From: Glycomyces harbinensis
Lineage (GTDB): Bacteria > Actinomycetota > Actinomycetes > Mycobacteriales > Micromonosporaceae
NCBI RefSeq assembly: GCF_900101745.1
Contig: NZ_FNAD01000020.1
Span: 62,001-126,000, forward strand
DNA: 64,000 bases
Reading direction: 5' to 3'
Shown: one piece after another, positions 2,800 to 36,778 of the stretch
Numbering within the stretch: position 1 is the stretch's first letter
How the letters are laid out: each line of letters begins with the position of its first letter
Program-made: the position numbers and the translations under genes
Notes under the pieces: model-generated
What the model was told of the DNA's origin: nothing
Database searches by the model: none
What the model saw: the letters and a program-made list of their open reading frames with translations, nothing else

Positions 2800-3468
2800 T
2801 TAGAAGACCTGACCGGTCTGCGACTGGAACGAGTCGCCCTCCGGGGTGGCCTCGGTGTAGGTGGTGTCGAGGAAGCCGTCGCCGTCGTTGTCCGACACGA
2901 CCGTGTCCGCGACGCCGTCGGCGTCCGAGTCGACCGAGAGCTCGTCGAGCAGGCCGTCCGCGTTGTAGTCGGTGGCCACCACGTCGGCGTAGCCGTCGGC
3001 GTTGGTGTCCGTCGCGACGGTGTCGACGTAGCCGTCGGCGTTGGTGTCGGAGGAGACCTGGTCGGTGACGCCGTCGCCGTCGGTGTCCGACTCCCAGGTG
3101 TCGATCAGGCCGTCGCCGTCGGTGTCGTAGACGAAGGAGTCCACCGTGCCGTCGCCGTCGGCGTCGACGATGACCTCGTCGGAGATGCCGTCGCCGTCGT
3201 AGTCGGTGGCAACGCCCTCGGCGTCGCCGTCGCCGTCGGCGTCGATCAGGGTCACGCCGTCGGTCGTGATGGTCTCGTCGGCGTAGCCGTCGCCGTCGAC
3301 GTCGAAGGTCTCGGTGACCGTGGAGACCGAGGAGTCCTCGTAGTAGTCCTCTTCGGCGGTGTAGTCCTCGGCGGGGACCTCTTCGGTGTAGGTCGCCTCT
3401 TCCTCGGTCGCGTACTCGTCGGTGGTGACGTCTTCTTCGACCGCTGCCGGGTCTTCGTACTCGCTCAT
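2800..3468 (-). CDS. Asp-rich DxDxDG calcium-loop repeat protein
   Basis: Unknown function. The 222-residue, strongly acidic protein has an N-terminal third rich in Glu, Thr and Tyr, then about 11 tandem repeats of 13 residues of the type DTDGDGxxDxxxx (variants TDYDGDG, DTNADG, DSDADG). Such loops are the calcium-binding part of thrombospondin type 3, dockerin and EF-hand repeats, so calcium binding is likely. There is no signal peptide, membrane helix or catalytic domain, which makes a cytoplasmic location or a non-classical exit route the default reading. The ATG at 3468 has AAGGA about 10 nt upstream. The repeats are also visible in the DNA as a 39-bp period. Confidence 0.8.
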   Translation of the reverse strand: MSEYEDPAAVEEDVTTDEYATEEEATYTEEVPAEDYTAEEDYYEDSSVSTVTETFDVDGDGYADETITTDGVTLIDADGDGDAEGVATDYDGDGISDEVIVDADGDGTVDSFVYDTDGDGLIDTWESDTDGDGVTDQVSSDTNADGYVDTVATDTNADGYADVVATDYNADGLLDELSVDSDADGVADTVVSDNDGDGFLDTTYTEATPEGDSFQSQTGQVF

Positions 3469-3621
3469 CGCTCTTCCATCCTTAGATCTTGAAGTGTTCG
3501 GTGCTTGTGAGAAGAACTTTACGACCGCGCTGAGGGCCGTGAATCCCCAGAGTGTGCCAACCCCCTATGCTTTCTCCCGTCCCTCCCGTATGCGGTTGTC
3601 CCCGAACGTCAGGAGTGTTCG

Positions 3622-4200
3622 TTGGGCTTTGACGACAGCGCTTTCGACGTTCCCGAGCCGCCTCCGGCGCTGGTCCCGGTGCCGGCGGTGCGGGCCTTCG
3701 ACTTCCACTCCGCGCGGGTCGTGTTCGGCGCGGCGGGCTGCGGCTGGCAGTTCGACCTGCGGGCCGACGACCCGGTCACGAGGGACGGGATGCTGCTGGT
3801 GCCCTTGATATCCGAGGCGGACTACTACCGGGCGGTGGACGGCGACGGGGACGCCTACGCGAGCCTGGTCCCGGCCGAGGACGTGTACGTGCAGCGGCCC
3901 GAGCCCGGCACGGGCGCCCCGCGCCCCGGGTACCTCATCGAGCGGCTCTCCGACCCCGACCGGCCGCCGGTGCGCCGGCCCTACCCGGCCTCGGACGTGC
4001 CGAGCCTGGTCGGGCGCCGGGTCTGGTACTGGACGGACGGGGCGTTCAGGGACGACTTCCGCTGCGTCTCCGAGCCGTTCGAGGTCGACGGCGACTTCTG
4101 CGTGCGCGTGGTCGAGGAGCGGGCCTGGTACCGCTGGCAGCGCACCGGGATGCTGCCCAAGGCCCAGGACGCGTTCATCCACCACCTGTGGACGCAGTGA
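3622..4200 (+). CDS. Hypothetical protein, 192 aa
   Basis: I do not recognise this family. The start is TTG at 3622, chosen because AGGAG at 3611-3615 sits 6 nt upstream; no ATG or GTG has comparable support. The protein is soluble, with no signal peptide or membrane helix, and is rich in aromatic residues in its second half (GRRVWYWTDGAFRDDFRC, RAWYRWQRTG). The codon pattern (G/C third positions) is normal for the neighbourhood, so it is very likely a real gene. It is convergent with holB and the context gives no functional clue. Confidence 0.75.
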   Translation: MGFDDSAFDVPEPPPALVPVPAVRAFDFHSARVVFGAAGCGWQFDLRADDPVTRDGMLLVPLISEADYYRAVDGDGDAYASLVPAEDVYVQRPEPGTGAPRPGYLIERLSDPDRPPVRRPYPASDVPSLVGRRVWYWTDGAFRDDFRCVSEPFEVDGDFCVRVVEERAWYRWQRTGMLPKAQDAFIHHLWTQ

Positions 4201-19843: not shown

Positions 19844-21651
19844 TTCGACTCCCCGTGCCCTCGGAGGTGCCCGCCGTCCCGGGTGTTCCGGCGCGCCTCC
19901 GGTTCCGGGCCGTCCTGCCGGTCCGGGCTGTTCTTCTGGTCCGGTCCCGGGCTGTTCTTCTGGTCCCGTCCCGGGCTGTTCTTCTGGTCCCGTTCCGGGA
20001 ACAACCCGGGCGGGCGGCCGTTGCCATCCCAGTTGAGGAGGTTGAACCGGCGCGCCGGGCCCGAACGGCCGTCGCTGGTCTGGCGGTCGCGCAGGGCGTG
20101 GAAGGTCTCGACGCTGGCGGGCTGCGGCCGTCCCGAGGCCTCGCCGAACGGCGCCTCGCCGCCCATGCCGCCCATGCCCGGTCCGCCCTCGAAGTCGAGC
20201 GAGCAGCCGATCTCGTCGATGACGCCGCGGTCGGCCTCGTCGACCCCGTACGCCGTCGGGATCACGTACCGGTCGTCGTACTTCGCGAGCGCCAGCAGCC
20301 GGTACATCCGCTCGATGTCGGCCCCGGTCATGCCGGCCGCCGTCGCGATCGACTCGTCCGGCTCCTCGCCGAGATTGATGCGCCGCATGTAGGAGCGCAT
20401 CGCCGCGAGCTTCCCGAGCACGTCCTTCACCGGCCCGGGGTCGCCGGCGGTGAACAGCTCGGCGAGGTACTCGACCGGGATGCGCAGCGTGTCGATCGCG
20501 GCGAACAGGTTCCCGGCGTCCTCGCCGTCGTGGCCGGACTCGCTCAGCGCGTCGACCACCGGCGACAGCGGCGGGATGTACCAGACCATCGGCATGGTCC
20601 GGTACTCCGGATGCAGCGGCAGCGCCACGCGGAACCGCTTGGCCAGCAGATGGATCGGGGACCGGCGCGCCGACGCCACCCAGCGCTCGGGGATGCCGTC
20701 GCGGATCGCGGCGGCCTGGACCTCGGGGTCGTCGGGGTCGAGGAAGACGTCGAGCTGCGCCTCGTAGAGGTCCTTCTCGTCCTTGACGGCGGCCGCCCTG
20801 CCGACCCGTTCGACGTCGTAGAGGATCACGCCGAGGTACCGCAGGCGCCCCACGCAGGTCTCGGAGCACACGGTGGGCATGCCGACCTCGACGCGCGGGT
20901 AGCAGAGCGTGCACTTCTCGGCCTTGCCGGTCTTGTGGTTGAAGTAGACCTTCTTGTAGGGGCAGCCGGTGACGCACATGCGCCAGCCCCGGCACTTGTC
21001 CTGGTCGACCAGGACGATGCCGTCCTCGGCGCGCTTGTACATCGCGCCGGAGGGGCACGCGGCGACGCAGGAGGGGTTGAGGCAGTGCTCGCAGATGCGC
21101 GGCAGGTAGAACATGAACGCCTGCTCGTAGTCGAACCTGACCTTGTCGCCGATCTTCTGCACGATCGGGTCGTTCGCGGCCAGCTCCTCGCCGCCGGCGA
21201 GGTCGTCGTCCCAGTTGGCGCTCCACTTGATCTGCATCGGTTCGCCGGAGATGAGCGAGCGCGGCCGGGCCCCGGGTATGTCGTCGCCGAGCGGCGCGGA
21301 CACCAGGTGCTCGTAGTCGTACGTCCAGGGCTCGTAGTAGTCCTGGATGGACGGCATCTTGGGGTTGGCGAAGATCGTGGCGAGCTTCTTGAGGCGTCCG
21401 CCCGCGCGGGGCTTGAGCCTCCCTGTGGCCGTGCGCTTCCAGCCGCCCTGCCAGCGCTCCTGGTCCTCGTGCCGCCTCGGGTAGCCCTGTCCGGGCCGGG
21501 TCTCGACGTTGTTGAACCACACGTACTCGACGCCGGAGCGGTTGGTCCACGCCTGTTTGCAGGTGACCGAGCAGGTGTGGCATCCGATGCACTTGTCGAG
21601 GTTCATGACCATCGCGACCTGCGCCATGACCTTGCCGATGCGCTGCGCCAT
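19840..21651 (-). CDS. narH: Respiratory nitrate reductase subunit beta, with repeat tail
   Basis: 603-residue iron-sulfur subunit that wires electrons from NarI to NarG. Four cysteine clusters are present: CIGCHTCSVTC (Cys21, 24, 27, 31), CEHCLNPSCVAACP, CRGWRMCVTGCP (the cluster with Trp in place of a Cys, giving 3Fe-4S) and the CTLCYP to CSETC group. The usual length is about 510, so roughly 80 residues are extra at the C-terminus; they include three DQKNSPG-type repeats and a charged, disordered end. The ATG overlaps the narG stop by one base (TGATG). The extension sits in frame with normal codon use, so it is translated unless there is a sequencing error. Confidence 0.96.
   Translation of the reverse strand: MAQRIGKVMAQVAMVMNLDKCIGCHTCSVTCKQAWTNRSGVEYVWFNNVETRPGQGYPRRHEDQERWQGGWKRTATGRLKPRAGGRLKKLATIFANPKMPSIQDYYEPWTYDYEHLVSAPLGDDIPGARPRSLISGEPMQIKWSANWDDDLAGGEELAANDPIVQKIGDKVRFDYEQAFMFYLPRICEHCLNPSCVAACPSGAMYKRAEDGIVLVDQDKCRGWRMCVTGCPYKKVYFNHKTGKAEKCTLCYPRVEVGMPTVCSETCVGRLRYLGVILYDVERVGRAAAVKDEKDLYEAQLDVFLDPDDPEVQAAAIRDGIPERWVASARRSPIHLLAKRFRVALPLHPEYRTMPMVWYIPPLSPVVDALSESGHDGEDAGNLFAAIDTLRIPVEYLAELFTAGDPGPVKDVLGKLAAMRSYMRRINLGEEPDESIATAAGMTGADIERMYRLLALAKYDDRYVIPTAYGVDEADRGVIDEIGCSLDFEGGPGMGGMGGEAPFGEASGRPQPASVETFHALRDRQTSDGRSGPARRFNLLNWDGNGRPPGLFPERDQKNSPGRDQKNSPGPDQKNSPDRQDGPEPEARRNTRDGGHLRGHGESK
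19925..19996 (-). repeat. 24-bp tandem repeat in narH, three copies
   Basis: Three near-identical units, recognised by CTGTTCTTCTGGTCC starting at 19928, 19952 and 19976 on the plus strand. In frame they encode the DQKNSPG repeats of the NarH tail. Confidence 0.85.
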
Positions 21652-36223: not shown

Positions 36224-36778
36224 TTAGTAGTCGCCCTGGTCGTCGCCCTTGTCGGGGTTGTCGCCGTCGTCGCTGATGTGGTCGGCGTTCAGGCACTGCT
36301 GGTAGAGCGACGGCGCGACGCCGACGTTCTGCCCGCAGATCTGCCAGTGCGCCGCGTCCGACACGTCCAGGTTGGCGGCGGAGACGTCGCCCGCGGTGAC
36401 GCCCGAACCGGCGTTGTCGCCGATGTGGTCGCGGTTGTCGCAGGTCTGCTCGAACGACTGGGTCAGCACGTTCTGGCCGCAGATCTGCCAGTGCGCCGCG
36501 TCCGAGGCGTCGACGTTGGCCAGCGACACGTCGCCGGCGTTGACGCCGGAGCCCTGGTCGTCACCGAAGTGGTCGCGGTTGTCGCAGTCCTGGTCGTAGG
36601 ACGTGGTCAGCACGTTCTGGCCGCAGATCTGCCAGTGGGCGGCGCTCGAGGCGTCGATGTTCACCAGGGAGACGGCGCCCGGGACGGGACCCGAAGCGGC
36701 GGCCATGACGGGCGCGGCAGCGCCGAGAGCGGCGATCGCGCCTGCGGCGGCGGCAGTCGCGGTGAGAACCTTGCGCAT
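36224..36778 (-). CDS. Secreted two-cysteine repeat protein, three repeats
   Basis: 184 residues: signal peptide (MRKVLTATAAAAGAIAALGA to VMAA), then three repeats of 48 residues and an acidic Asp/Gly-rich tail. Each repeat has the pattern VSLxNxDxSxAAHWQICGQN, then V, a short variable run, Q-x-C-x-N-x-D-H, and a Gly/Ser linker. Each repeat has exactly two Cys (12-13 residues between), so one disulfide per repeat is likely. There is no catalytic motif; a structural surface role is the natural reading. I do not recognise the family. Chaplins are a loose analogy (short secreted CGN...C repeats), not a match. ATG 36778 has AAGGA 9 nt upstream. Confidence 0.85.
   Translation of the reverse strand: MRKVLTATAAAAGAIAALGAAAPVMAAASGPVPGAVSLVNIDASSAAHWQICGQNVLTTSYDQDCDNRDHFGDDQGSGVNAGDVSLANVDASDAAHWQICGQNVLTQSFEQTCDNRDHIGDNAGSGVTAGDVSAANLDVSDAAHWQICGQNVGVAPSLYQQCLNADHISDDGDNPDKGDDQGDY

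Follow-up and report, generated by a model that had tools for sequence, protein, structure and literature searches.

Repeats of Ca2+-binding loops are usually found in proteins outside cells. The genome of Glycomyces harbinensis encodes a protein with eleven loops of this kind and no recognizable export signal, and the question raised by its gene is where the product acts. The window referred to below is the whole stretch of DNA that was analysed, 64,000 nucleotides of contig NZ_FNAD01000020.1 (positions 62,001 to 126,000 of the forward strand; NCBI RefSeq assembly GCF_900101745.1). A promoter signature held in common with other genes suggests that this repeat protein does not merely buffer calcium by accident of location but functions within a response to envelope stress.

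The gene lies on the minus strand at 2800-3468 (ATG at 3468, stop at 2800-2802) and encodes a leaderless protein of 222 residues. An acidic N-terminal tail that begins MSEY (residues 1-55, 3304-3468, minus strand), differs in length from species to species and is predicted to be disordered (pLDDT below 50 for residues 1-50) precedes a block of 143 residues containing eleven Dx[DN]xDG loops (residues 56-198, 2875-3303, minus strand), each 13-residue unit of which has one short predicted beta strand. The C-terminal tail (residues 199-222, 2803-2874, minus strand) ends in GDSFQSQTGQVF and is nearly identical in many long members of the genus. The eleven D.[DN].DG matches start at residues 56, 76, 89, 102 and so on to 193; loops 2 to 11 keep an exact 13-residue register, and loop 1 is offset by an insert of seven residues (residues 69-75, 3244-3264, minus strand). 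Tandem Repeats Finder reports a 39-bp period at 2866-3087, 3070-3166 and 3147-3245, with 67-79% matches, and a 117-bp period at 2875-3244. The eleven 13-residue repeats of DxDxDG type and the 39-bp DNA period described in an earlier, sequence-only reading of this locus are thus borne out. Elsewhere in the window, tandem repeats occur at 19923-19999 (24-bp unit, 3.2 copies, 96%) and at 36324-36681 (144-bp unit, 2.5 copies, 82%). Asp and Glu make up 71 of the 222 residues of the protein, and Lys, Arg and Cys are absent. Because both Lys and Arg are missing from 27 of 31 long genus members, such proteins would yield no ordinary tryptic peptides, and even an abundant one would be missed by standard proteomics.

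The absence of an export signal, also remarked on in that reading, withstands closer inspection. The reading frame extends 32 sense codons upstream of the ATG to the preceding stop, and none of these codons is ATG, GTG or TTG; a missed upstream start, which the same reading had named as a finding that would overturn it, was not found. The upstream codons would encode a slightly hydrophobic stretch, but besides having no start codon they overlap the promoter, and the predicted -10 hexamer TAAAGT (pattern TANNNT, 3516-3521, minus strand) leaves a leader too short to code for a signal peptide. A ribosome-binding-site-like stretch, AAGGA plus GGAAGAG (3471-3483, minus strand), recognized in the sequence and in the upstream alignment, is kept in many genus members. 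Within the protein the maximum Kyte-Doolittle mean over 19 residues is 0.43, and neither frame, upstream codons nor hydropathy revealed a signal peptide or membrane anchor. The puzzle over location is real. The gene stands alone in the window, with no operon partners, between folE and a gene for a 191-aa protein that belongs to no family. The repeat gene and folE converge, and a G+C-rich, perfect-looking hairpin in the gap that separates them, at 2718-2750, is probably a terminator shared by the two. The divergent neighbour (3622-4200, plus strand; start at 3622 or 3679, about 173-192 aa) has no match in Pfam or NCBIfam. Its relatives cluster in loci L124, L126 and L130, and in L130, too, the copy diverges from a Dx[DN]xDG gene beside folE.

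Matches to the repeat protein are present in all 22 genomes of the genus, beyond what chance would give, at two to five per genome, a few of these being pieces of one gene; the five in the window genome (G000) correspond to three long paralogues, one medium and one short. In the family, 60 of 61 sampled genomes match the family profile, although the weaker matches could represent different Dx[DN]xDG proteins. The named relatives include Plantactinospora, Actinocatenispora, Micromonospora, Corynebacterium and Millisia, and the family takes in Phytomonospora, since a protein of Phytomonospora endophytica (L059) is identical to one (L037) of family genome G046. A mobile origin finds no support, as no match was found in phage records and none of the 29 matching plasmid records reached 80% query coverage.

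The repeat block is conserved in length and in order. Of 36 proteins taken into the repeat parse, three were left unparsed, and among the 33 parsed homologues the block is exactly 143 residues long in 32 and 144 in one, which contradicts the earlier suggestion that the copy number could vary. Among 30 proteins, repeats of the same index are 67.5% identical between proteins, as against 44.6% for repeats of different index and 45.1% for repeats within one protein; the best match between proteins was the same-index repeat in 5981 of 9570 comparisons (62%, with 9% expected by chance). Because the same-index repeats match best across proteins, the repeats are ancient, each retained in its own right, and are not recent copies. 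Within the 330 repeats of these proteins the loop columns are nearly invariant (D1 in about 100%, D/N3 in 95%, D/N5 in 100%, G6 in 97% and D/E/N9 in 100%), in agreement with the pattern of Ca2+-binding Dx[DN]xDG proteins, which have D at position 1, D or N at 3 and 5, G at 6 and an acidic residue at 9. Over 78 pairs the block has a median pN/pS of 0.71, with values from 0.28 to 1.38, which speaks against strong constraint and indicates that residues outside the loops are only loosely constrained.

AlphaFold2 models predict an all-beta repeat fold. For the window protein (9 sequences; mean pLDDT 71.2, pTM 0.59), ten-residue blocks over residues 71-200 have pLDDT values of 79-92, with one four-residue strand per 13 residues and a disordered tail over residues 1-50, and a second run with the Phytomonospora protein (7 sequences; mean 76.2, pTM 0.62) gave the same pattern. 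Foldseek searches with the model returned nothing at E<=0.001 (best 8.7e-3). The best VIA-align match was an engineered OspA (Z 10.8, rmsd 3.5 over 165 residues), and the sheets of TarM/SdgB scored Z 8-10; these matches hint at a single-layer sheet, perhaps an antiparallel meander, and are no sign of kinship. Because the models contain no ions, we infer Ca2+ binding from loop chemistry, and the protein probably binds, and folds with, Ca2+.

Lanmodulin and EF-hand proteins are built on helix-loop-helix units. They were matched weakly through their loops in a PDB sequence scan (E 0.17-0.19), but kinship with either is rejected on the all-beta models, in neither of which is there a helix of at least four residues, and no EF-hand Pfam model was matched. 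Thrombospondin type 3 repeats have the 13-residue spacing seen in the window protein. That protein differs from them in having no Cys, no signal peptide and a predicted strand in each unit; it likewise departs from the family trait of signal-peptide export, having neither signal peptide nor upstream start, and the TSP3 model was absent from a Pfam scan at E<=10, in which short repeat models are easily missed. The likeness to TSP3 and other Dx[DN]xDG proteins of the Rigden and Galperin type lies in the loop and the acidic residue at position 9 (PMC3123361). The best Pfam match, DUF6802 (E 0.0016, three stretches), falls at 18.8 bits below its gathering cut-off of 27, and a search of open-licence papers for that name found none.

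What is new here concerns the promoter. Alignment of the upstream regions of the repeat genes first brought out a conserved element, the box TGGCACACTCTGGGGAT (3543-3559, minus strand; consensus TGGCAC-N6-GGGAT), which lies 20-23 nt upstream of the -10 hexamer. With at most one mismatch, TGGCACNNTCTGGGGATT occurs at three sites in the 6.17-Mb window genome, one before each long paralogue. A scan for the full promoter pattern, TGGCAC-N6-GGGAT-N19..23-TANNNT, found five sites in that genome and 79 in the 22 genomes of the genus; the reversed pattern, used as a control, gave none, and first-order Markov simulation gave no match in 20 Mb. The initial TGGCAC suggests a sigma-54 promoter, but the remainder of the element does not fit one, and to our knowledge actinobacteria are without sigma-54.

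The 79 sites fall into three groups. Thirty-six precede repeat-protein genes: 35 have a Dx[DN]xDG match no more than 400 nt away, and the other stands ahead of an additional gene of this type. All 32 long genus members have the box within 400 nt, so the association is unlikely to be incidental; among the weaker or short relatives in the genus it is present in 3 and absent from 42 of 45. A further 22 sites, found in 22 of 22 genomes, have the spacer type seen before EsxB/EsxA, and the 12 inspected all precede small WXG100-like genes. In the window genome this site (C33:12631) is followed by two WXG100 genes confirmed by Pfam, in a locus that also has genes for EccE and an FtsK/SpoIIIE-type ATPase. 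The remaining 21 sites are in 21 genomes, and the five inspected all precede the gene for a P/Q-rich protein with a single membrane span. The window genome's own copy of that protein (611 aa, L229:2706-4541, contig C35) has the box upstream and matched nothing in Pfam or NCBIfam. Judged from these scans, the exact box in the genus is found almost only before the repeat proteins, the EsxB/EsxA operon and the P/Q-rich membrane protein. Boxes with two mismatches recur in several genus genomes, lying between genes for a PP2C phosphatase and a kinase-like protein (L184, L189, L194, L195) and before or near an eccB gene (L192, L193).

Beyond the genus, the exact pattern is present in 70 of 101 genomes of the family and in 21 of 160 of the order, where the control gave three sites. 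Of 25 loci read from further genera of the family, 12 have the exact box before a dynamin-like gene, eight before the gene of a protein with at least two Dx[DN]xDG loops and three before that of another acidic leaderless protein, two being unclear. At the level of the order, genes of Dx[DN]xDG type follow it in families f11, f12 and f13 and both gene types do so in f5, and several sites have another gene, or no clear gene, downstream. Genomes of genus g44 (L255, L257; G064, G083, G099, G112) have 9-17 copies of the box each, some before acidic leaderless proteins without Dx[DN]xDG loops, and a much larger regulon there is possible.

The dynamin-like genes connect the box with a candidate regulator. 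The window genome has one dynamin-like pair, in an operon of the order dynamin, GrpE-like, dynamin, acidic protein, which is divergent from a gene for a large ATPase with a LuxR-type C-terminus; between the divergent genes, in all 22 genus genomes, lies a box with one mismatch (GGGAG for GGGAT). A divergent large ATPase gene was found at each of the ten dynamin loci read (nine from seven genera and two families, plus the window genome), and the LuxR-type C-terminus is visible in eight, the other two being cut by contig ends. In the window genome the domain matches of regulator and operon are GerE (E 5e-16), Dynamin_N twice and AAA_16, the last at 30.5 bits and so under the Pfam cut-off of 32.6. 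In kind this is the layout of IniR-type loci, where two dynamin-like genes adjoin one for an ATPase that carries a LuxR-type helix-turn-helix (HTH). The regulator aligns with its mycobacterial counterpart over a 62-residue HTH region alone (42%), and within the family it shows good conservation, being 48% identical over its length to that of another genus. Given the HTH-only alignment and the sub-threshold AAA_16 match, the label IniR-like rests on architecture and gene position.

The repeat genes of the window genome are not near the dynamin operon, and none of 22 family loci examined has dynamin neighbours of the repeat gene. An independent link comes from beyond the family, where the repeat gene and dynamin-like genes fall within the same retrieved stretch at six of six loci, namely two in Corynebacterium, one each in Millisia and Actinomycetospora, and one each on a Rhodococcus and a Gordonia plasmid; this count sets aside loci L094, L101, L102, L103 and L108 (Mycobacterium and Gordonia sputi) and all non-actinobacterial loci. 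Genes for Hsp70-like proteins are nearby in five of the six, as are genes for RNA polymerase sigma factors in five. The window genome itself has 13 matches to the Hsp70-like profile (L133-L142 and three more), and ten of these are much stronger than a single DnaK per bacterium would lead one to expect. On the Rhodococcus plasmid (L113:11854-13885) the Dx[DN]xDG gene is followed by genes for a C39-like peptidase, a small acidic protein and a sigma-70 factor.

A box common to EsxB/EsxA and the dynamin-like operon points to a role at the envelope or membrane. Our favoured reading, to which we give a little less than an even chance, is that the repeat protein, leaderless and purely anionic, is a Ca2+-folded effector of an envelope-stress regulon under an IniR-type regulator. 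Upon envelope damage, the IniR-like protein, or another activator, would bind the box and turn these genes on jointly. The newly made chain would stay mostly unfolded in the low-Ca2+ cytoplasm until it met millimolar Ca2+, either at a membrane lesion or after leaving the cell by ESX or in membrane vesicles; each loop would then take up Ca2+, and the chain would snap into a rigid beta-sheet rod. Ca2+ would then bridge the acidic surface of the rod to envelope material that is itself anionic, and the dynamin-like GTPases, induced at the same time, would reshape or reseal the membrane. Exit by an unusual route, through ESX or in vesicles made with the dynamin-like proteins, is a possibility suggested by the co-regulation.

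Other readings have to be weighed against this one. The repeat protein may be a non-classical type VII (ESX) substrate, co-expressed with EsxB/EsxA and exported alongside them to fold outside in Ca2+, as the promoter box common to esxBA, the usual extracellular setting of Ca2+-loop repeats (compare PMC3123361) and the Y-x-x-x-E stretches in its Glu/Tyr-rich N-terminal tail would allow. Those stretches, however, are N-terminal and would be expected to arise by chance in a tail as acidic as this, the repeat gene lies outside the ESX locus, and of the WXG100-like helical hairpin with a C-terminal YxxxD/E that marks type VII substrates there is no trace, since sequence scans and models revealed neither WXG100, another helical hairpin nor any helix. 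We consider ESX export unlikely; being a rival as to location, it could be compatible with the role of an envelope-stress effector.

Quite unlikely, in our estimation, is a cytoplasmic Ca2+ buffer or sensor with no link to the envelope, the main idea of the sequence-only reading. Eleven potential sites, several paralogues and the lack of an export signal would suit a buffer, but the ordered, position-specific conservation and fixed length surpass what a buffer needs, and the promoter is held in common with ESX and dynamin genes. Very unlikely is an extracellular matrix or adhesin-like protein freed by lysis or in vesicles, for which the link to the regulon would be incidental: the closest described relatives are indeed exported myxobacterial, beta-barrel-associated and leptospiral proteins, all of them weak profile matches far under cut-offs, yet a box before 32 of 32 long members is unlikely to be so. 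A part in a defence or conflict system around dynamin-like GTPases and Hsp70-like and GrpE-like proteins is highly improbable, for although the dynamin-like proteins match the PADLOC models LeoA/LeoBC (E down to 1e-16) and related clusters are found on plasmids, neither the repeat protein nor the Hsp70-like protein matched any PADLOC model, and a gene matched at E<=0.001 in every one of the 22 genus genomes and in no phage record is unlike the patchy genes of defence.

The reading as an envelope-stress effector extends, with somewhat more reserve, to a wider proposition. Micromonosporaceae-type actinobacteria and some of their relatives may possess a box-defined envelope-stress regulon, run by an IniR-like protein, that jointly controls the dynamin-like/GrpE-like operon, EsxB/EsxA and leaderless, Lys/Arg-poor Ca2+-loop beta proteins, the last serving as Ca2+-triggered structural effectors, counterparts of IniB that are invisible to trypsin-based proteomics. 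Searches of open-licence papers under Glycomyces calcium repeats, under IniR with Micromonospora or dynamin, and under dynamin with type VII secretion found no description of such a regulon. As far as that literature shows, the Dx[DN]xDG loop is of a known kind, and what is new is the leaderless form of fixed length and the link defined by the promoter. If the proposition is true, an orphan calcium protein in an unexpected place becomes a named member of a regulon, the box becomes the first candidate operator of a non-mycobacterial IniR-type regulator, and one testable circuit joins Ca2+ to bacterial dynamins and type VII secretion, with a bearing on the function of iniBAC and on the purpose of Ca2+ in bacteria.

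The nearest known system is mycobacterial iniBAC. IniR is described as the dedicated activator of iniBAC in cell-wall stress, with AAA+, MalT-III-like and LuxR-like DNA-binding domains (PMC5760070), IniA as cutting membranes (PMC6715688), IniA/IniC as linked to vesicle release (PMC11832169), and IniB as glycine-rich (PMC6715688) and present in the cell wall (PMC7350357). Three mycobacterial loci that we read have genes of IniR, IniA and IniC type in the described layout, the IniR gene falling within the stretch in two. None of the three has TGGCAC-N6-GGGAT at up to one mismatch, though the iniB promoter may be missing from one of them. The IniR-like protein may have the box as its operator, a role that we infer, since none of these three loci carries it and the regulators align in the HTH alone. 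Two further differences stand out. IniB, judged from one short mycobacterial gene, has no Dx[DN]xDG loops, and in Glycomyces the genes of the putative effectors lie dispersed along the chromosome and esxBA has the same type of promoter. The likeness lies in two dynamin-like GTPases encoded next to a large ATPase whose C-terminus is of LuxR type, and in a low-complexity partner that is not a GTPase, which in mycobacteria is the co-expressed IniB and here, by its box, the Dx[DN]xDG protein; in role, the repeat protein would occupy the position that IniB holds in iniBAC.
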